Shown in pieces: positions 49 through 15,330 of a DNA stretch of 33,187 nt. The position numbers and the translations under genes are program-made. The notes beneath the pieces were generated by a model, which ran no database searches, had not been told where the DNA came from, and saw nothing but the letters and a program-made list of their open reading frames with translations. Every line of letters begins with the position of its first letter. The stretch's first letter is position 1. The DNA comes from Gemmatimonadota bacterium (GTDB taxonomy: Bacteria; Gemmatimonadota; Gemmatimonadetes; Longimicrobiales; Gaopeijiaceae): the NCBI GenBank assembly GCA_028874995.1, contig JAPPGM010000162.1, positions 1 through 33,187 of the forward strand. Direction: 5' to 3'.

Positions 49-3000
49 CTAGTGCAGAATGTTGCGCGAGCGCAGGTGCGTGATCACCGCGCCGGTCATG
101 AGCGGCCGTAACCGGTAGCGCGTCTCGGCGGCCGGCTCACCGGGGGCTGGCGGCTCGTCGTTCGGGAAGCGGCAGGCCTCGATGAAGTGATTCTCTTCGA
201 GGGATCGCAGCGTGTGCGCGCACTCCCGGGCCGAGGTCCGCAAGACCTCGCAGTACTCGCCGGTGCTCAGGGTTCCGTGATCGAGGATGGCCTTGAGGGC
301 GAAGCTCCGGGTCAGATCGAGCGTGTCGGTCGGAGGGCTCAGGGGATCCAGCGGGCGTACGAGAAGGCTGCCTTCGACGGTCGTGAAGTCCGCGGAGCGC
401 AGCCAGTGGAACAGCGCGAGGCGGATCGATCCCAGCGATGCCCGGTGCAGGCGCTCGAAGTAGTCCTTCTCGATCAGTTGCTGTTGACGGTCGGTCGCGT
501 GGATGCGGCGTGCCCGGGTGCGCAGGGCGTCCGCTCCGGCCCGTGGCTCGACGTATTCGAGGGGGAGCCCGCTGCGCAGGTGGCGGGAGGTGATTGCCTC
601 CCTCAGTTCGTTCGGAGACAGGGGCCGGAGGGCCAGTTGCCTTGTTTCGCCGGCCATTTCGGGCGCGCGTGTCCGGACCAGCTGCCACGCCGACGAAGTC
701 ATGGAGAGCACCCAGAAGATGCGCGACTCGGTCTGCGAGACGAGGGTCATGAAGCGCCGGCAGAGCTTCCCGCCTCCGGGCGAGCGCATGTGGAGGTGCT
801 CGACGCCTTCGAGGATCACCAGCCGGGGAATCGACCCCTCCGGGGCCGCGGTCACCATTTGCGCGAGTTGGTCGAGGCTCGTGGTGCCGTCGAGACCGAG
901 CCAGCGGGCCAGTTGACCCGCGAGGGACTCTTCTTCATGGATGCGCTCGCGCAGAACCCGCCGGACCAGTCGGGGCGCCTCTTCGGAGAGGCGCGTCGCG
1001 GCAACGTTCAGGAAGCTGGTGATCCCCGCGCCGGGCGGCGTGATCACCAGAAGGCATCCGGGCCCTCCCGCCTTCCAGCGCGCCCACGACGCTTCGGCCT
1101 CCGCCAGATCGTCGTCGCGTCCGGCGAGGAACTGCGGGTCCGTCAGGGGGGCGAAGGCGAAGAGCCGCTGGTAGACGACGGGGAGCGTCCGGATGAACTC
1201 CGCCGCTGAAGCCAGGGTGTTTTCGGCCCTCTCCGAAGTCCGCTTCGGCTGTGGACGCAATCCGAGCGCGACCAGCAGTCCCCCGAATCGCCGGCCCAGT
1301 GACCGGGCGCGCTCCCATGCGCGCCGCCAGCCCGCTGCGACGCGTTCCCGCCTCTGCTTCCAGTCCCGCGCAACTTCGGAGGCCAGGTAGGTGCGTGCGT
1401 CCAGGTAGCCGGCGCGCAACCGATCGGCGGTTACCCTCCGGGTCAGCCGCGCCGCGCCCTCCATGACCTCTTCGCGAACGCGGTCCGACGCCGATTCCAG
1501 CCCCTGGCGGAGCTCGGCCCGCGCAACCGCCAACTTGTCGCCGGCTCGCGAAAGCCCGTCGGTGACCAGGGCGCGAGCGTGATCCAGGTCACGGATCGCC
1601 GCGTCCTCCAACCCGCCGATTGCCGCCTCGTACCCGTAGTCCGATACGACTCCCAGATCCCGCACCGAACCGCCGGCACGATTCATGGCTTCCGCGACTA
1701 CGGACGGGGCAGTGCGGATGCGCTCCATCCGAAGGGTGTCGAAGGCCTGCACGGCGAGTCCCCGGGTCTCGACCAGGCGGGAGTCCCTCCCCGGGTGGCG
1801 TATGGTCTCGCCCGAATCCGGCAGGTCGTGGAGGGTGACTTCCGGCAGTTGCTGGTACATCGCGACCAGGTCTTCCACGGCCTCCTCGGCGTGCCTGGCC
1901 AGATCCCGGAGGAAAGGGCCGGTGTCATTCAGCGTGGTGATCAGTCCGTCCAGGGCCCGGGCGGTCTGCCCCCTCTCCGCCTCGAGAGCACCTCGCAGCC
2001 CGTCGTCGTCGTCCTGCAACGCCTTCGCGCGCGCCACGCCACCGTCCAGGACGGCCGCGATCCGATCCAGGACGGCATGGGCGCCCCGGATCGTCTCCCG
2101 CCAGTGACCGAGCAGTCGGCTGCTGATCGCACCGGCCGCCGCGTGCATGGCCAGGAGACCCCGGTGCAACCGCAGGCGGGCCGCAGCCTGTGCCGCCCAG
2201 TCGTCCCACCTCCGGGCCAGGGCCAGCTCCCGGTCGTCGCTGAGCAGTCGTGTCGGCGGAGGCGACGGCGTCGGCGCCACGAAGGTTCCCGCCACGGCCA
2301 CTGTAGCCGCGAGCACTTCGGAGGACCGCCGAAAGTCCCCCCCCTCCCCCCACCCCACCCCGTCCCCGATCGCCACCAGCTCGCTCTGCAGCGCCGCCCC
2401 CGCGTCCGCCCCCGCGCGCACGACCTCCACCACCCCCGGTGCCTCCCCACCCGCCCCTCGCCTCGGCGGCAACAGCACCGCCCTGGTCCACGCGGCCCAG
2501 GCCCGCTCCACCCGCCCCAGCCACCCCGCGCGGCCACGCTGGCCGGCGCGAAAGGCACGCCTCTGACGCGGGACCACGTCGCCTTCGAGGTAACGGCGCG
2601 CCACGGAGCGCACCTTCACCTCATGGACCTCGTGCCTCCACACGACGGGCCGAAGCAGACGCGCCCAGAGCCGCCGCACCGCCGTTGCGGGCCCCAGTCC
2701 GGCGGCGGTGGCGAGCGCGTCCGGAGAAACCGGTGCCTCGGCCACCTCCTCCAGCTCGCGCACGGCTTCGCGGGCCGCGTTGTCGGCCGAGACCAGCGCG
2801 CGGTGCAGCTTCACCGCGAGGGTGCCGTGGCGGAGCACCAGATGGACGGGCTTCAGCACGTTGCGAGCCACATCCCGCCGGTACTCCACGAGCGCCTGCC
2901 GGGCGGATACGGCGTCCAGCGAGCCGTTGTCGGAATCCGTGGCCTCGGCGAATGCCGCCAGGGAGCTCTCGTGCGCAGTCACCGCCTGCTCCAGGGTGCG

Positions 3001-3141
3001 GCGGACCCGCCCCAGGTCCTCCTCGTCGTGACGACGCCACGCGGCCGCAAACGGCTCATGAACGGCCCGGGCGATGCTCCCGACGATCTCCGCGTCGGTC
3101 ATCCGTCCGGTCCCGTCTCCACCCTGGCCCGCGTCGCTCAC
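49..3141 (-). CDS. Large cytoplasmic P-loop-like (degenerate NTPase) protein, partner of MscS channel
   Basis: 1030 residues, GTG start overlapping the MscS stop as GTGA, so probably translated by coupling; an in-frame ATG 13 codons later is an alternative start. I do not recognise a named family. Residues 1-650 are rich in Arg, Ala and Glu, look largely alpha-helical, and have no convincing membrane segment or signal peptide. An NTPase-like core follows: a Walker-A-like TPPGAGIT at 701-708, with Ile707 where the nucleotide-binding Lys is expected, and a Walker-B-like LVILEGVEHL with Glu778. Residues around 935-985 (ALKAILDHGTLSTGEYC onward) resemble a winged helix. This order, a helical region, a STAND/ORC-like ATPase core and a wHTH, suggests a sensor or scaffold rather than a transporter. 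Whether it binds ATP is doubtful. The tight link to the channel suggests it controls or responds to it (inference). Confidence 0.7.
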   Translation of the reverse strand: MSDAGQGGDGTGRMTDAEIVGSIARAVHEPFAAAWRRHDEEDLGRVRRTLEQAVTAHESSLAAFAEATDSDNGSLDAVSARQALVEYRRDVARNVLKPVHLVLRHGTLAVKLHRALVSADNAAREAVRELEEVAEAPVSPDALATAAGLGPATAVRRLWARLLRPVVWRHEVHEVKVRSVARRYLEGDVVPRQRRAFRAGQRGRAGWLGRVERAWAAWTRAVLLPPRRGAGGEAPGVVEVVRAGADAGAALQSELVAIGDGVGWGEGGDFRRSSEVLAATVAVAGTFVAPTPSPPPTRLLSDDRELALARRWDDWAAQAAARLRLHRGLLAMHAAAGAISSRLLGHWRETIRGAHAVLDRIAAVLDGGVARAKALQDDDDGLRGALEAERGQTARALDGLITTLNDTGPFLRDLARHAEEAVEDLVAMYQQLPEVTLHDLPDSGETIRHPGRDSRLVETRGLAVQAFDTLRMERIRTAPSVVAEAMNRAGGSVRDLGVVSDYGYEAAIGGLEDAAIRDLDHARALVTDGLSRAGDKLAVARAELRQGLESASDRVREEVMEGAARLTRRVTADRLRAGYLDARTYLASEVARDWKQRRERVAAGWRRAWERARSLGRRFGGLLVALGLRPQPKRTSERAENTLASAAEFIRTLPVVYQRLFAFAPLTDPQFLAGRDDDLAEAEASWARWKAGGPGCLLVITPPGAGITSFLNVAATRLSEEAPRLVRRVLRERIHEEESLAGQLARWLGLDGTTSLDQLAQMVTAAPEGSIPRLVILEGVEHLHMRSPGGGKLCRRFMTLVSQTESRIFWVLSMTSSAWQLVRTRAPEMAGETRQLALRPLSPNELREAITSRHLRSGLPLEYVEPRAGADALRTRARRIHATDRQQQLIEKDYFERLHRASLGSIRLALFHWLRSADFTTVEGSLLVRPLDPLSPPTDTLDLTRSFALKAILDHGTLSTGEYCEVLRTSARECAHTLRSLEENHFIEACRFPNDEPPAPGEPAAETRYRLRPLMTGAVITHLRSRNILH

Positions 3142-4445
3142 GGCGTCACCGGATCACCCGTCTCCGGCCCGCCGGATACGGCCAGCGGATACCAGTCGTG
3201 TTCGGGAGCGAGCCCGGCAGCGCGGAATCCGTCCCTTGCGCGCTCGGTGATGTCGCTCCGCAGCAGGAATTCGAACCGGGGGTCCAGGACGTAGGCCCGC
3301 ACCTTCACCCGGGTGACGAAAGTGGTGTGGAATTCGTCCTCTATGAACACCTGGATGGGCTTCTCCAGGAAGACGTACTTGGAGTTGACCGCGGCCTCGA
3401 AGGCGATCGCCTTCGCCAGACGCTCGTCCACCCGTCCCGGCAGGTAGAGGTTCGTCAGGACCTGGCAGTTGAGCTGACCCGCGTTGGCGTTGGCCACCTG
3501 CTCCTCGACGACCTGCGAATTCGGCACGGACACGAAGTCGTCGTCCGCCGTGACAATGCGGGTCGAGCGAAGGCCGATCGACACGACCTCCCCGTAGGTG
3601 CCGCCCACCGAGATCTTGTCGCCCACCTGGAACGGCTGGTCGAAGACGACGATCAGCCCGCCGAAGACGTTCTTGAGCAGGTCCTGTGCGGCAAATCCCA
3701 GCGCCACGCCCAGCGCCGCGCTGGCCGCGAGAATCCCCTGCGCGTCAACCCTGAAGATCGTGCGAATGATCAGGTACGCCGCGATCCCCCAGAGCAGCAT
3801 GCGCGTGATCGGGATCAGCCACTTGAAGGTGAGGCGGCGCCTGACGCTCCGTTCGGCCAGCGTCTCCAGGATCCAGATCACGCCGCGGATCACGAAGCGG
3901 AACAGGACGAGCACCATGATCGACCAGAAGATCGCCAGGCCGAGGTTGGTGACCTCGTCGCGGGCCTCCTCCAGGTCGATACCGCCCGTCTGGTCGGTGG
4001 GCGCAACGCTGTCGACCGGACGCGCGGCCTCCATCGCGTCGAGGCGTGCGAGGATGCGCTCCTGGGCCGCCATGATGTCCGTGAGGGTCACGGCCAGCGA
4101 GTCCTCGGCGGTTGCGGGAGCGGTGTCGGGCTGCTGCCCGGCCGGTGTTGGGGCTGGGGGTTCGGTGGTGGCAACCGTCAAACCCGCCGCGGAGGCCGTG
4201 TCGGAAGGCGCCCGGGCGTCCGAATCCTGTGCTGCCGGCGGTTCGGGCACCTGGTTCTGCGCGTCGTCGGATTCGGTATCCCGTTCGCAGCCGGCGAGCA
4301 GGAGCCCGGCGGCGAGCACGGCGAAACACGTGGGGCGGACCAGGGCCTGGCCGGACCCGGTTGGCCCGGTGCCTCGCCCTGCTCGCCGCCCGTGGGGATT
4401 GTTCCACCGGTTGCCGGGCCTTATCCGGCGCGTGCGTATGTGCAT
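3138..4445 (-). CDS. MscS-family mechanosensitive channel with lipoprotein-like N-terminus
   Basis: 435 residues from the ATG at 4445. An in-frame ATG at 4592 lies upstream of a plausible promoter and inside the polA start region, so I reject it. The N-terminus has an Arg-rich stretch, a hydrophobic segment and a lipobox LLAGC with Cys53, then a Pro/Ala/Asp/Thr-rich linker of roughly 80 residues. The channel part follows: membrane helices around FWSIMVLVLFRFVIRGVIW and MLLWGIAAYLIIRTIF, then the pore-lining MscS helix ALGVALGFAAQDLLKNVFGG. The MscS beta domain (FQVGDKISVGGTYGEV, then VPNSQV) and a C-terminal alpha/beta domain complete it. The family opens under membrane tension and releases ions and small solutes. 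The lipobox-bearing front end is unusual; if it is used, the linker is periplasmic. The last bases overlap the next gene, the large P-loop-like protein. Confidence 0.88.
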   Translation of the reverse strand: MHIRTRRIRPGNRWNNPHGRRAGRGTGPTGSGQALVRPTCFAVLAAGLLLAGCERDTESDDAQNQVPEPPAAQDSDARAPSDTASAAGLTVATTEPPAPTPAGQQPDTAPATAEDSLAVTLTDIMAAQERILARLDAMEAARPVDSVAPTDQTGGIDLEEARDEVTNLGLAIFWSIMVLVLFRFVIRGVIWILETLAERSVRRRLTFKWLIPITRMLLWGIAAYLIIRTIFRVDAQGILAASAALGVALGFAAQDLLKNVFGGLIVVFDQPFQVGDKISVGGTYGEVVSIGLRSTRIVTADDDFVSVPNSQVVEEQVANANAGQLNCQVLTNLYLPGRVDERLAKAIAFEAAVNSKYVFLEKPIQVFIEDEFHTTFVTRVKVRAYVLDPRFEFLLRSDITERARDGFRAAGLAPEHDWYPLAVSGGPETGDPVTP

Positions 4446-9234: not shown

Positions 9235-11079
9235 CTACCGATTGCCGAAGATCGCCCTGGCTGCGCTCGCGCTCCTGCTGCGGCGCGCCTGCTGGTCCCC
9301 GAAACCGGTCAGGAGGCTGACCGGGTCGTAGCCGATTCGGAACCGATAGTCCGCAAGACCTCCAGCGTGCAGCGGCACCGCCAGATCGACTCTCACGACC
9401 TGCCTGGCCCCGGGCGGAAGGGCGATGCGCAGCCCCGCACCCACCGCACCCCTGAGACCGGTATCCGCGCCGAAGGGAACGCCCCCGTGCCAGCCGGCAC
9501 CCACGTCGGCAAAGAGGGTAAGGCCGACATCGAAGAGGCCCGGAAGGGTCCCGAGCACAATCCGGTCCTCCATGTGCGCCACCAGCTTTCGACCGGCCGG
9601 CAAGTCCTCCCTGCTGTAGCCCCGTACTCCGCTCGGCCCCCCTAGCGTAAGCTGAAACGGAAGCGAGGTATCCCATCCCCCCGCCCCCTTCAGCCCCAGA
9701 ACCAGCGTGTGCCGGGACGCGGGCGCAGTGTCGACTGTTGCTCCCCGCCGGCCCGGTTGCCAATAGAAGTAGGCGCCGGCCTCGGCGAGCACGTCGCGCA
9801 TGCCCCCTTCTGCTCGGCCGATGTGCCGGGCCGCTTCGATCGTCAGCTCGGAGTTGAAGACCCAGTTGTCCCCTGCGGCCCCGCCGAAGAGGGAAACCCA
9901 GCCGCGCAGTTCGTGGTAATCGCCTTCAGAGGCCCAGGTGGGTGAGCCCAGGGTGGTGGCGACGGTCAAAAGGGCCTGGGTACCCACGCGTATGTCCTGT
10001 TCGCTGCGAAGCGCATCCAGCCCCCGGCGGGTGACGAATCCGATGTTCCGCTTGCCGGCCATCAGGTCGAGGCGAGCGGTGCGTCTTCGGTTCACATGGG
10101 GCAGAAGCACCTCCGCGGTGACGGCGTCCGCCGTGTCGGGGTTGGAAAAATCGAACCCGGACACCACCGTGACCCCGTCGGGGTAGTCGTCGAAGGATAC
10201 GTCCTCCCAGGAGAACCCCGCGCCCACCACCGTCAGGTCACCCGGCGTCCCGAATCGACGCGCGAGCATCGTCGCCGCCCGAGTGGCACGCATGGGGAGA
10301 TTCACATGCGTCAATACCGAGTCGGCAGGAGCTACGTACCGGAACAGGTCCTCCCTGTGCGAGAAGAACTCGACAAACGCCCAGTGGCCCACCTCTCCGA
10401 CGAACGGGTAGGTGAGCGATTCGTGAAAGAACCTCCCCGTGCGCGTCCGGCCCGCGCCGATCCGGCCGTCCATGCGCGTCCCGGCCAGGCGTGGCGTACG
10501 CAGCTCCAGCCCCAGATCCCGCCTCTCGTCTCGCTCGATGAGGTACACTCCCAGCAGGGTCCCGGTGCCCATCAGGTTCTCTTCGGTGACCGAAACGCGC
10601 GTGATCCTGAGACGCTGATCGAATTCGGGGCGGATGTCGAGCTTGAGCGTCCATTTGTCGCGAGTGTCGACGACGACGTGCACCTCGGTCTCCGAGACCG
10701 CGACGGAGTAGACATCGGCGTCCGCGATGAAGGGCAGGGCTCTCAGGATGCGCGCGGACTCCTCGACGAGGAACGGGTCGAAGCAATCTCCTTCCTCGAA
10801 AAGCAATTCGTCGCGGATCAGGCTCCCCCGGGTACGGCGATGAACCCGGTTGGCGAGCCAGTTCGCCAGTCGGCCCGGCCAGTTCATGGATTGGCCGGAA
10901 TCGGGCACCGGGGGATAGATCGTATGGTTGTCGACAAAGATCTCGTGAATGACGGGCCCGTCGCAGCCGGTCTCACCCGCCGGGTCGCGGACTTCCTGCG
11001 CGGACGTGCCGAGCGGGCGGCCGGCGGTTAGCGACAGGAATACCACGGCAGCCGTCAAGGCGAGGGTAGTACGCCTCAC
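9235..11079 (-). CDS. Omp85/BamA-like outer-membrane beta-barrel protein
   Basis: 614 residues from a GTG at 11079, chosen because a normal signal peptide then begins at once (MRRTTLALTAAVVFLSLTAG, cleavage near TSAQ). A GTG at 11214 would add 45 residues. After the signal, a region with RDELLFEEGDCFDP, RILRALPFIADADVYS and VHVVVDTRDKWTL matches a single POTRA-like repeat. The rest is beta-rich, alternating and aromatic, as in a 16-stranded barrel, and contains LGGPSGVRGYSREDLPAG, the VRGY lid-loop signature of Omp85 proteins. The C-terminus carries about 20 Arg/Ser-rich residues beyond the last likely strand (YRFRIGYDPVSLLTGF), which is unusual. Its role is probably outer-membrane insertion or secretion; with only one POTRA it is unlikely to be the main BamA. 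A TTGACA lies at 11221-11216 without a recognisable -10. Confidence 0.82.
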   Translation of the reverse strand: MRRTTLALTAAVVFLSLTAGRPLGTSAQEVRDPAGETGCDGPVIHEIFVDNHTIYPPVPDSGQSMNWPGRLANWLANRVHRRTRGSLIRDELLFEEGDCFDPFLVEESARILRALPFIADADVYSVAVSETEVHVVVDTRDKWTLKLDIRPEFDQRLRITRVSVTEENLMGTGTLLGVYLIERDERRDLGLELRTPRLAGTRMDGRIGAGRTRTGRFFHESLTYPFVGEVGHWAFVEFFSHREDLFRYVAPADSVLTHVNLPMRATRAATMLARRFGTPGDLTVVGAGFSWEDVSFDDYPDGVTVVSGFDFSNPDTADAVTAEVLLPHVNRRRTARLDLMAGKRNIGFVTRRGLDALRSEQDIRVGTQALLTVATTLGSPTWASEGDYHELRGWVSLFGGAAGDNWVFNSELTIEAARHIGRAEGGMRDVLAEAGAYFYWQPGRRGATVDTAPASRHTLVLGLKGAGGWDTSLPFQLTLGGPSGVRGYSREDLPAGRKLVAHMEDRIVLGTLPGLFDVGLTLFADVGAGWHGGVPFGADTGLRGAVGAGLRIALPPGARQVVRVDLAVPLHAGGLADYRFRIGYDPVSLLTGFGDQQARRSRSASAARAIFGNR

Positions 11080-11259
11080 CAGCGCGGGCCCTCGCCGCTC
11101 GTGGTGCCCGGCGTGGCCCCCGCGCTCGTCGGGTTTGGTCGACGGGCTGCGGGTTGGGGTCTTGATTTCATGCGGGGTCTGGTACCGGTACCGGGAGGCT
11201 GCGAGAGTGGTCACTTGTCAAGATGGTTAGAGCCTGAAGGGCGTCAAAGGGTTCGCCCG

Positions 11260-11289
11260 TTGACGGGACTTCGGCGCGACGGGTAGGAT
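11260..11289 (+). promoter_or_regulatory. Candidate sigma-70 promoter of maeB
   Basis: TTGACG (11260-11265) and TAGGAT (11284-11289) are separated by 18 bases. Transcription would start near 11297. That leaves about 13 bases before the ATG at 11310 but about 58 before the TTG at 11355, and this helped choose the TTG. Confidence 0.55.
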
Positions 11290-11354
11290 TCCAACCCGGA
11301 ATTGCCGGCATGGGCGCGCCACAGCCGGTCCCGCACTACACGGGAGACGATTCG

Positions 11355-13607
11355 TTGTCGACATTCGAGAGCGACGCGCTGGTCTATCACGCGGAGGGCC
11401 GCCCGGGGAAGATCGAGGTGGTCCCCACGAAGGCGGTCGCCACCCAGAGGGACCTGACCCTCGCGTACAGCCCTGGCGTGGCCGAACCGTGCATGGCCAT
11501 CCACCACAACCCCGAGGAAGCCTTTCGCTACACCGCGCGGGGCAACCTGGTCGCGGTGGTCTCGAACGGCACGGCGGTCCTCGGGTTGGGTAACATCGGC
11601 GCCATGGCGGCCAAGCCGGTCATGGAGGGCAAGGGCGTCCTCTTCAAGAAGTTCGCGGGGATTGACGTTTTCGACATCGAGATCGACACGGAAGACCCGC
11701 ACGAGGTCATCCGCTTCTGCCAGCTTCTGGAGCCGACGGTCGGCGGCATCAACCTCGAGGACATCCGCGCGCCGGAGTGCTTTCTGATCGAGGAGACGCT
11801 CCGACAGACACTGCGCATCCCCGTTTTTCACGACGACCAGCACGGCACCGCCATCATCGGGGGGGCCGCGCTCGTCAACGCGCTCGAGATCACGGGTCGG
11901 GACATCGCCGGCGCGCATGTGGTGTTCGTGGGGGCGGGAGCGTCTTCCATTGCCACGGCGCGCCACTGTCTGCGGCTCGGGGTCCGGTCCGAAAACCTGG
12001 TCATGACGGACCGGGCGGGCGTGATCCATGAGGGGCGCGAGGAGGGGATGAACGAGTACAAGGCGCAGTTCGCCACCGAGCGGCCTGTGCGCACCCTTGC
12101 GGAGGCGATGGAGGGCGCCGACGTGGTCATCGGCCTTTCGGCCAAGGGGCTGATCAACTGCGCGATGGTCGAGTCGATGGCGCCCGCGCCCATCATCTTC
12201 GCGCTGGCCAACCCCGATCCGGAGATCACCCCGGAAGAGGTGGCCCGGGTCCGCGACGACGCGATCATGGCCACGGGCAGGTCGGACTACCCCAACCAGG
12301 TGAACAACGTGCTCGGTTTCCCCTTCCTCTTCCGCGGCGCGCTTGACGTGCGCGCGCGCCGGATCGACCAGGGGATGATGCTGGCGGCCACCCGCGCCCT
12401 CGCCGAACTGGCCCGCGACGAGGTGCCCGAGTCGGTGGTCAAGGCGTACGGGGACGACGGCTTCGAGTTCGGCCCCGAATACCTGATCCCCAAGCCGTTC
12501 GACCCTCGGGTCCTGCTCCACGTGTCGCCCGCGGTTGCGAAGGCGGCGATGGAGTCGGGCGCCGCGCGCATCGCCGTCGACCTGGAAGAGTACCGCGACC
12601 GTCTCGAAGCCAGTCTTGGGCCGGGCCGCGAGGCCATGCGGAGGATCCTCGGGCGGGCCAGAAGGGAGCCCGCGCGCATCGTGCTGGCCGATGGCTACAA
12701 CGAGCGGGTGCTCCGCGCTGCCGCGCAAGTGATGGAGGAGGGGACCGCGCGCATCGTCCTGATCGGCAAGACCGAGAAGATCCGCCGCTTCGCCGACGAA
12801 CTGGGGGTCGACCTGCGCGGCGTGGAGTGCATCCATCCGCCCGCGGTCGAGTCGACGCGCTACGCGTACGCCGAGGCCTTCCACCGCCGCCGGGAGCGCA
12901 AGGGACTCACCTTGGCCGAAGCGCGGGCACGCGCCTACCAGCCGGTCTACTTCGCGGCCATGATGGTCGGCGCGGGCGACGCGGACGCCATGGTGGCCGG
13001 GATCGACTCGAACTACCCGCAGATCCTCCGCCCCATGCTGGAGGTCATAGGCACCGCCGAGTTGGTGCGGAAGATCTCGGGGCTGCACATGGTCGCCTTC
13101 CGCGACCGCGACCCCCTCTTCTTCGCCGACACCACCGTCAACATCGATCCCGACCCGGAGACGCTCGCCGAGATCGCCATCTCGGCCGCCCGCTTCGTGC
13201 GCGACCTGGGGATCGAGCCGCGCATCGGCATGCTGTCGTTTTCGAACTTCGGTTCGGTCCGTCACCCCGAGGCCGCCAAGGTCCGCGAAGCGGTGGACTG
13301 GATCAAGCGCCTGGCGCCCGACGTGCTCGTGGACGGCGAAATGCAGGCCGACGTGGCGGTCGACCCGCACATCATCGCCACGAAGTACCCGTTCAGCGAT
13401 CTGACCGGGCCCGCGAACGTCCTGGTCTTCCCCACCCTGAGCGCCTCCAACGCCTCCTACAAGCTGCTGGCGCAGCTGGGAAACGCCGAGGTGATCGGTC
13501 CCGTACTGCTCGGGATGAAGAAGCCGGTGCACATCCTCCAGCGGGGATGCAGCGTCCTCGATGTCGTGCACCTCATAGGAATCGCGTCGGTGGACGCGAG
13601 GACATGA
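11355..13607 (+). CDS. maeB: NADP-type malic enzyme with phosphotransacetylase-like C-terminal domain
   Basis: 750 residues from a TTG at 11355 that follows GGGAG by eight bases and gives the family's usual beginning ([11 protein letters not shown]); E. coli MaeB has 759. An in-frame ATG at 11310 would add 15 residues. It converts malate to pyruvate and CO2 with reduction of NAD(P)+. The malic domain carries the catalytic Tyr in [10 protein letters not shown] (Tyr38) and a Lys in [25 protein letters not shown] holds metal ligands. The Rossmann domain carries [16 protein letters not shown], and ALANPDPEI follows. From about residue 425 a phosphate acetyltransferase-like domain follows ([15 protein letters not shown] onward, [17 protein letters not shown]), which in this family is regulatory, sensing acetyl-CoA, and not catalytic. 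With pckA next door it forms a gluconeogenic/anaplerotic node. Confidence 0.95.
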
Positions 13608-13637
13608 CCCCTTGGTGGGGCGGGAAGTCGGGAGCCC

Positions 13638-13657
13638 GGCGTCCATCGGTGGACGCC
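13638..13657 (+). terminator. Hairpin between maeB and pckA
   Basis: GGCGTCCA-TCGG-TGGACGCC is a perfect 8-bp stem with a four-base loop, 30 bases after the maeB stop. The stem is strong and GC-rich, but no T-tract follows. It may stop or attenuate read-through into pckA, or protect the maeB mRNA end. Its loop and right arm repeat the last codons of maeB (13587-13597). Confidence 0.4.
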
Positions 13658-13761
13658 CGGACAGGAGACGGACACATTACCGGGTTGCCCCGTCTCGCCC
13701 CGCGATACGGGATCGATACCCTTTGACCGCCCAACCCAGGCCAATTCGGAGGCTGTAGAAG

Positions 13762-15330
13762 GTGGACCTTACCGCGCAGGGACTGGCCCCCGGGGGGTGC
13801 GTGCGCCGGAATCTCTCTCCCGCGGAACTCTACGAAGAGACGTTGCGGCTGGGGACCGGCAGACTCGCCCACGGGGGCGGACTCGTCACCAACACCGCGC
13901 CCTACACCGGGCGTTCTCCCAACGACCGCTTCATCGTGCACGAGGCCGGATCGGCCGGCGTCATCGACTGGGGGGACGTCAATGTCCCCATCGGCGAAGA
14001 ACACTACGCGCGGCTCAAGGCCGAGATCATCGAGCGTCTCAACGGGTGCGATCTGTACGTTCGCGACGCCCGGGCGGGGGCGGACCGGCGCTACGGGATC
14101 AACGTGCGCGTGATCTCGGAAAGCCCGTGGCACGACCTCTTCGCCTACAACATGTTCCTGCGGCTCGACCCCGGGGAGGAAGACGGCTTCGCCCCCGATT
14201 TCGTTGTCTATCACGCCCCCTCCATGCAGTCCGACCCCGCGCGGCACGGCACCAACTCGGGCGCCTTCATCGTCGTCCACTTCACGGAAAGGGTCGTGCT
14301 GGTCGGCGGCACCCCGTACGCCGGCGAGATCAAGAAATCGATCTTCGCGTCGCTCAACTTCCTGCTGCCTGCCCAGGGCGTGCTTCCCATGCACTGCTCG
14401 GCCAACATCGGCGAAGGGGGCGACACGGCGCTCTTCTTCGGACTCTCCGGAACGGGGAAAACCACCCTTTCGGCCGATCCGGACCGCCGGCTGATCGGCG
14501 ACGACGAGCACGGCTGGAGCGACGACGGCGTCTTCAACTTCGAGGGCGGCTGCTACGCGAAGACGATCCGCCTCTCGCCCACCGGCGAGCCCGAGATCTA
14601 CCGGGCGACCCGCATGTTCGGCACGATCCTCGAGAACGTGATCCTCGACGAGCGGACCCGGGAGATCGACTACGACGACGGCTCGATCACCGAGAACACC
14701 CGTGCGTCCTACCCGCTCCACTTCATCGACAACGCCGTGGCTTCGGGGCGGGGCGGCCACCCCGAGAACGTCGTCTTCCTCACGGCCGACGCCTTCGGGG
14801 TGCTGCCCCCGATCGCGCGCCTGAGTCCCGAACAGGCCATGTACCACTTCCTTTCGGGTTACACGGCCAAGGTGGCGGGTACAGAGCGCGGGGTCACCGA
14901 GCCCCGGGCCGCCTTCAGCGCCTGTTTCGGGGCGCCGTTTCTGCCGCAGCACGCCACCGTGTACGCCGATCTGCTCGGCAGGAAGTTGCGAACGCACGGT
15001 TCCCGGGCCTGGCTGGTGAACACCGGGTGGACGGGGGGCCGCTACGGGGTGGGCAGCCGCATGAAGCTGGGATACACCCGGGCGATGGTGGCGGCGGCGC
15101 TCACCGGCGACCTCGACTGCGCGCCGACGACGGTGGATCCGGCCTTCGGGTTGCATGTGCCCACGCAGGTGCCGGGTGTGCCCGCGGAGGTGCTGCAGCC
15201 GCGCGACACCTGGGAAGCCGGCGGTGCCTACGATGATGCCGCCGCCGAACTGGCTGATATGTTTAGGAGGAACTTCGAACAGTTTGCGGGCCGTGTGGCT
15301 CGGGAGGTGAGGGCCGCGGGGCCCGTTTGA
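13762..15330 (+). CDS. pckA: Phosphoenolpyruvate carboxykinase (ATP)
   Basis: 522 residues, GTG start nine bases after GGAGG (13748-13752). It converts oxaloacetate and ATP to phosphoenolpyruvate, CO2 and ADP, the committing step of gluconeogenesis from TCA-cycle intermediates. The family signatures are intact: NTAPYTGRSPNDRF near the N-terminus, HCSANIGEGGDTALFFGLSG leading into the kinase P-loop GLSGTGKTTLS with Lys233, the metal-binding Asp pair in LIGDDEHGW, and FNFEGGCYAKTI. NTGWTGGRYGVGSRM near the C-terminus contributes to the nucleotide site. Length is close to the usual 530-540 residues. It follows maeB on the same strand after a strong hairpin, so it may be partly independently expressed. 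The M23 peptidase gene follows after 80 bases. Confidence 0.97.
   Translation: MDLTAQGLAPGGCVRRNLSPAELYEETLRLGTGRLAHGGGLVTNTAPYTGRSPNDRFIVHEAGSAGVIDWGDVNVPIGEEHYARLKAEIIERLNGCDLYVRDARAGADRRYGINVRVISESPWHDLFAYNMFLRLDPGEEDGFAPDFVVYHAPSMQSDPARHGTNSGAFIVVHFTERVVLVGGTPYAGEIKKSIFASLNFLLPAQGVLPMHCSANIGEGGDTALFFGLSGTGKTTLSADPDRRLIGDDEHGWSDDGVFNFEGGCYAKTIRLSPTGEPEIYRATRMFGTILENVILDERTREIDYDDGSITENTRASYPLHFIDNAVASGRGGHPENVVFLTADAFGVLPPIARLSPEQAMYHFLSGYTAKVAGTERGVTEPRAAFSACFGAPFLPQHATVYADLLGRKLRTHGSRAWLVNTGWTGGRYGVGSRMKLGYTRAMVAAALTGDLDCAPTTVDPAFGLHVPTQVPGVPAEVLQPRDTWEAGGAYDDAAAELADMFRRNFEQFAGRVAREVRAAGPV

Follow-up and report, generated by a model that had tools for sequence, protein, structure and literature searches.

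A near-obligate pairing of an MscS-family channel with a large AAA+-like protein in Gemmatimonadota and Bacteroidota, a candidate osmotic or ionic release system

Introduction

To our knowledge, MscS channels are textbook tension-gated valves that are thought to need no partner; MscK and MscM carry extra domains within the same chain, and we know of no such partner for either. MscS is a heptamer, as are several AAA+/STAND assemblies. The cation-chloride cotransporters (CCC), the CPA antiporters and Trk are systems of monovalent ion and osmotic transport, and in Trk/Ktr a membrane channel is combined with a TrkA/KtrA ring.

Here, a gene pair at one end of a 33,187-nt stretch of Gemmatimonadota DNA (the window; contig JAPPGM010000162.1) was compared with these systems. 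The channel is a member of the MscS/MscK/MscM group by its PF00924 beta domain, three predicted transmembrane helices and a conserved pore-lining helix, but differs in its lipoprotein anchor (in the window and in most Gemmatimonadota partners) and in having a near-obligate separate partner gene. In the predicted model of this partner, a 1030-aa protein here termed BIG, residues 651 to 1028 are alike in fold to ORC/Cdc6, TnsC/MuB and STAND proteins (Apaf-1 and archaeal SSO1545/PABY2304), whereas the absence of the Walker A lysine in the window's clade, a huge helical N terminus and a position almost always beside a channel set BIG apart. Trk/Ktr offers a like layout, with a cytosolic regulator, dedicated to the channel and of the nucleotide-binding kind, encoded by an adjacent gene, and both TrkH and TrkA are present in some BIG loci; however, BIG is AAA+-like rather than RCK/Rossmann, and its partner MscS is a release valve. 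SLC12 cation-chloride cotransporters and CPA2 antiporters are joined to the BIG N terminus in eight loci, whereas the window BIG is standalone. The parts belong to known superfamilies, and the BIG family and its near-obligate pairing with an MscS subfamily appear undescribed. The preliminary description of this DNA knew of no system with both parts, and a literature search, with most subscription journals outside its scope, likewise turned up neither an MscS-AAA+ pair nor a CCC/CPA-ATPase-MscS fusion.

Results

The gene pair in the window

The features of the pair are as follows.

49..3141, minus strand: BIG, the 1030-aa cytoplasmic partner protein (ORF call; GTG start at 3141; dN/dS about 0.30)
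3138..4445, minus strand: MscS-family channel gene with N-terminal lipobox Cys53 (ATG start at 4445, alternative GTG start at 4340)
3138..3141, minus strand: GTGA overlap, formed by the MscS stop TGA (3140-3138) and the BIG start GTG
3483..3683, minus strand: MscS beta domain (PF00924), Pfam match
1393..3096, minus strand: N-terminal helical domain, BIG residues 16-583 (AlphaFold2 pLDDT 89.7, pTM 0.84, this half modelled alone)
337..1191, minus strand: ORC/Cdc6/TnsC-like AAA+ core, BIG residues 651-935 (Foldseek E value, 5.8e-7; VIA Z, 15.9)
67..315, minus strand: winged-helix domain, BIG residues 943-1025 (AlphaFold2 model and VIA; weak profile matches to winged-helix repressors)
1015..1038, minus strand: degenerate Walker A motif PPGAGITS, BIG residues 702-709 (K replaced by I707)
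808..822, minus strand: Walker B strand with Glu, LVILE, BIG residues 774-778 (followed by GVEHLHMR)

Both ORFs and the GTGA at 3141-3138 were confirmed, in agreement with the initial account of an MscS-type channel coupled by this overlap to a 1030-residue protein. Overlaps of 4 nt such as GTGA are a very common operon junction, and a single one is ordinary; an NTGA junction between MscS and BIG recurs in nearly all Gemmatimonadota relatives, however, which is far beyond chance. Sequence comparison with two congeners (73% identity; dN/dS about 0.30) indicates that BIG is a genuine gene, maintained by purifying selection. Its divergent neighbor in the window is polA. No RNA was found in an Rfam scan of the window. 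Elsewhere in the window, two minus-strand genes for proteins of 800 and 527 aa (11244-13646 and 13573-15156), both without a Pfam match, adjoin a gene for an Omp85 protein (9235-11214), and this order is kept in congeners.

The window channel matched MS_channel_2nd in Pfam (E value, 2.9e-20) with 72.6 bits against a curated cut-off of 20.2, and with 76.6 bits in a genome-wide search, where the only other match in the 4.5-Mb genome was a fragment at a contig edge. Hydropathy of homologues and their alignment gave three predicted transmembrane helices and a Gly/Ala-rich pore helix, the pore-lining helix being conserved. The channel had been described as a lipoprotein, and a lipobox was indeed present in the window MscS (LLAGC, with Cys53 counted from ATG 4445) and in most Gemmatimonadota partners. 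GTG 4340 is the more plausible start codon, since it yields a normal lipoprotein signal peptide, VRPTCFAVLAAGLLLAGC, with the lipobox Cys. Second or third MscS paralogues adjoin the pair in four other loci (L133:5982-6902, plus strand; L172:3782-7998, L189:4365-5444 and L110:1693-2781, minus strand), with L133 arranged as an MscS-BIG-MscS sandwich.

Predicted structure of BIG

BIG has no family of its own in Pfam or NCBIfam, and its best Pfam match, AAA_22 (E value, 0.006), fell below the cut-off. TrkA_N and TrkA_C, the domains expected of a Trk/Ktr RCK regulator, were absent from BIG in the Pfam search. An AlphaFold2 model built on 43 homologues had a mean pLDDT of 84.6, and here the long helical region, STAND/ORC-like core and possible winged helix of the preliminary description were all recovered. 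The N-terminal domain was predicted as a two-part bundle of long helices with one beta hairpin per half (134-137/172-175 and 435-438/454-457). Signs of an internal repeat in this domain were only suggestive. Foldseek returned no PDB match for this domain at an E value of ≤0.001. Generic helical bundles were considered as kin (Z of 15.6 to a designed bundle and of 7 to 10 to dynamin-type stalks), and no kinship was read from these scores.

For the core, VIA aligned 249 residues at an rmsd of 3.5, and in the predicted model the AAA+ core together with the C-terminal winged helix was closest to ORC/Cdc6 and TnsC, a TnsC heptamer being among the Foldseek matches. The C terminus also weakly matched winged-helix repressors in profile searches (SmtB; E value, 0.001). 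The protein had been called P-loop-like, which holds for the ORC/STAND-like core but not for the P loop itself; this is degenerate, reading TPPGAGITS in place of GxxxxGK[ST], with the catalytic lysine replaced by isoleucine.

Short BIG proteins of ∼440 to 466 aa (L179, L188, L194 and L215 to L219), which lack the N-terminal helical domain and still lie directly upstream of MscS, are a natural minimal version. In two loci, the full-length BIG gene was followed ∼5 kb downstream by an extra 122-aa copy of its C terminus (L115:12315-12680 and L136:12529-12894, both plus strand).

Distribution and linkage of MscS and BIG

BIG occurred in each of the 23 genomes of the window's genus and, in a scattered fashion, elsewhere in the class, in further genera, families and orders. 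Genome-by-genome searches covered Gemmatimonadota and Bacteroidota. Using a partner-MscS profile at an E value threshold of ≤1e-40, the MscS subfamily was identified in 45 of 395 Gemmatimonadota genomes, every one of which also carried BIG. BIG itself was found in 49 of the 395; the four without an MscS match comprised three contig-edge cases (G007, G015 and G402) and one cotransporter fusion with a divergent MscS (G066). Fisher tests, which ignore shared ancestry, gave p values of 5e-55 when genomes were counted and 2e-16 when genera were counted. In genera g5 and g6, the two genes were either both there or both missing. Judged from these gene counts, the pairing of BIG with this MscS subfamily is near-obligate.

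Profile searches identified further BIG relatives in Gemmatimonadota and Rhodothermales, and in the phylum to which the Salinivenus record belongs, taken here as GTDB Bacteroidota with Rhodothermales included, 57 of 296 genomes had relatives. The contig scan that reached Rhodothermales used a single peptide pattern and therefore under-counts other phyla. No relative of the L055 BIG was found on the plasmids searched. Across 114 surveyed loci, MscS was the immediate same-strand neighbor of BIG in 104 (MscS first in 57, BIG first in 47), with 8 of the remainder cut by contig ends and 2 (L196 and L197) very remote and without a scored MscS. As L107 and L123 duplicate L232 and L229, adjacency amounts to ∼102 of 104 loci not cut by contig ends. 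In L196 and L197, a remote BIG is accompanied by a 240-aa membrane protein, which by eye looks like a worn or degenerate MscS, and then by a Na+/H+ exchanger.

Linkage persisted in both gene orders and with BIG down to ∼21% identity. In ten congeners, the pair adjoins polA and usually also ssb and a sigma factor gene; in other lineages these neighbors are absent and MscS still precedes BIG, so that the outer neighbors vary by lineage while the pair is constant. The idea of a two-part machine, for which a search for co-occurring neighbors across phyla had been proposed, is borne out to this extent: the genes are adjacent in Gemmatimonadota and Bacteroidota, and because the pair is gained or lost as a unit and linked across two phyla, it is not inherited only among close relatives. 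That a conserved two-gene system exists is virtually certain.

Four records carrying the pair are titled Gammaproteobacteria (L107, L114, L117 and L121). We read the class name as a label given by the submitters; at least L114 (G271:C66) falls within the window's own Gemmatimonadota family, and the titles look like mislabels. The Gemmatimonadota class includes the marine, salt-related Palauibacterales (PMC10469786). A record named Candidatus Palauibacter poriticola (L120) has the pair. In 15 Bacteroidota loci (L171:4106-6091, minus strand, and equivalents), genes for an N-acetylmuramoyl amidase and of uridine-kinase type are divergent from the pair, and an M49 peptidase-like gene lies 3′ of it in 8 Bacteroidota loci.

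Gene order and the Walker A lysine

A tree was built from 63 BIG cores with the P-loop columns left out. The MscS-to-BIG order arose once on this tree, on a branch with an SH-aLRT of 99, details of its deep part being uncertain given long branches (L193, L134, L133 and L055) and a chosen root. In the window's clade, MscS is first wherever the order is known, and the Walker A lysine is absent from 36 of 36 proteins, with I, V, T, L, R, H or A in its place. BIG-to-MscS loci kept GxGK[ST] in 23 of 27 cases. On this tree, the order switch and the lysine loss fall on one branch; four BIG-first (type B) proteins also lack the lysine (L172, L181, L175 and L199), and its loss is therefore not strictly bound to gene order. 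The BIG-first, lysine-keeping type is probably ancestral. The window BIG, judged by its lost lysine, most likely derives from an ATPase and is now a pseudo-ATPase.

Fusions with and proximity to ion transporters

In eight loci, BIG is fused at its N terminus to a transporter, of the K-Cl cotransporter type in four and a CPA antiporter in four. The former, each a single chain, are as follows.

L135, 4146-9392, plus strand: K-Cl-type cotransporter-BIG fusion
L182, 7986-13079, minus strand: K-Cl-type cotransporter-BIG fusion
L183, 8536-13671, minus strand: K-Cl-type cotransporter-BIG fusion
L184, 10082-15142, minus strand: K-Cl-type cotransporter-BIG fusion

These chains are ∼1690 to 1750 aa long, are followed by a divergent MscS gene and all match AA_permease (E value, about 1e-48). 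In L183, an SLC12 domain scored above the cut-off and the K-Cl cotransporter model TIGR00930 (E value, 5e-114) below its own. In L180 and L187 the CPA antiporter was identified by PF00999, in L203 and L204 through similarity; TrkH adjoins the pair in each of these four loci. L193 has the order TrkA, TrkH, a polytopic domain fused to BIG, and MscS. Overall, recognized ion transporters were found in ∼1/10 of the surveyed loci, and the fusions sit in lineages other than the window's clade.

Discussion

We consider it fairly probable that MscS and BIG work together as a two-component system for osmotic or ionic release, in which BIG is a dedicated controller of the channel and, in the window's clade, a pseudo-ATPase. 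Its parts differ in strength: a role of the pair in ion or osmotic homeostasis is likely, and direct control of the channel by BIG is slightly favored. MscS would be the membrane valve. On the cytoplasmic side of this channel we would place BIG, whose synthesis is probably matched to that of MscS through translational coupling. We infer that BIG contacts MscS and gates it; its N-terminal helical half may sense or anchor, and its AAA+/winged-helix half may be an assembly or switch module acting on the MscS cytoplasmic cage. In the BIG-first type with the lysine, nucleotide probably drives the switch; in the window's clade, BIG is probably a nucleotide-independent scaffold or sensor. Given a heptameric channel and heptameric AAA+/STAND assemblies, such as that of the TnsC match, a symmetric cap is conceivable. 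More tentatively, the MscS cage may be capped and controlled by a dedicated AAA+/STAND-type ring, a pseudo-ATPase in one large clade, with BIG joined to SLC12, CPA2 and Trk settings as a general volume-control module.

The preliminary description leaned toward immune or phage-defense machines and gave stress or osmotic systems as its other option. Abortive infection, with BIG as a STAND-like infection sensor and MscS as a membrane-leak effector, would suit the joint presence of a membrane effector and a protein with a STAND/ORC-like core and a long helical region, as well as the patchy presence outside the genus and weak, P-loop-level PADLOC matches to mad8 in BIG relatives. Among the PADLOC models, however, the window BIG had no match even at an E value of 10 and the window MscS matched only ZorF (E value, 0.77); the occurrence of BIG throughout the genus, beside housekeeping genes, likewise disfavors defense, as do the loss of the P-loop lysine in the window's clade and the K+ and Cl− transporter linkage in other lineages. 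Defense is thus quite unlikely, and relatives fused to or beside CPA, K-Cl-type and TrkH/TrkA transporters point to the ionic and osmotic option instead. Within the window's clade, admittedly, the neighbors (polA, ssb and the sigma factor gene) are uninformative on ions, the fusions belong to other lineages, and DNA binding is one possible meaning of the winged helix.

The last point, together with the DNA binding of ORC/Cdc6 relatives, would fit a transcription regulator of osmotic genes that merely shares an operon with MscS. This is very unlikely: a role on DNA sits uneasily with BIG chains that are themselves fused to integral membrane transporters, and AAA+/winged-helix folds are likewise frequent in switches without DNA binding. 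The same fusions and neighbors would agree with BIG as a regulator of K+/Cl− transport in general, with MscS as one of several outputs and not the main target, and the antiporter loci L196 and L197, with only their degenerate MscS-like protein, lend themselves to it; yet MscS alone among the partners occurs in all but these two loci and recognized ion transporters in about a tenth, making this unlikely. The commonness of 4-nt junctions would allow an ordinary operon of unrelated genes that overlap by chance and are co-inherited by close relatives, a possibility already refuted by the co-occurrence and locus-survey data, and practically negligible in view of two-phylum linkage at such low BIG identity, in both orders and with gain and loss as a unit.

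Osmotic or ionic control by the MscS-BIG pair is favored over immunity by the joining of BIG to K+, Na+/H+ and Cl− transporters. A near-obligate overlapping partner across two phyla would put a whole MscS subfamily under active cytoplasmic control. Cation-chloride cotransporters, antiporters and Trk loci are connected by the fusions to a single regulator module, which may therefore act as a shared unit of bacterial volume control. The pair thus points away from phage defense and toward an undescribed means of regulating salt and water balance.
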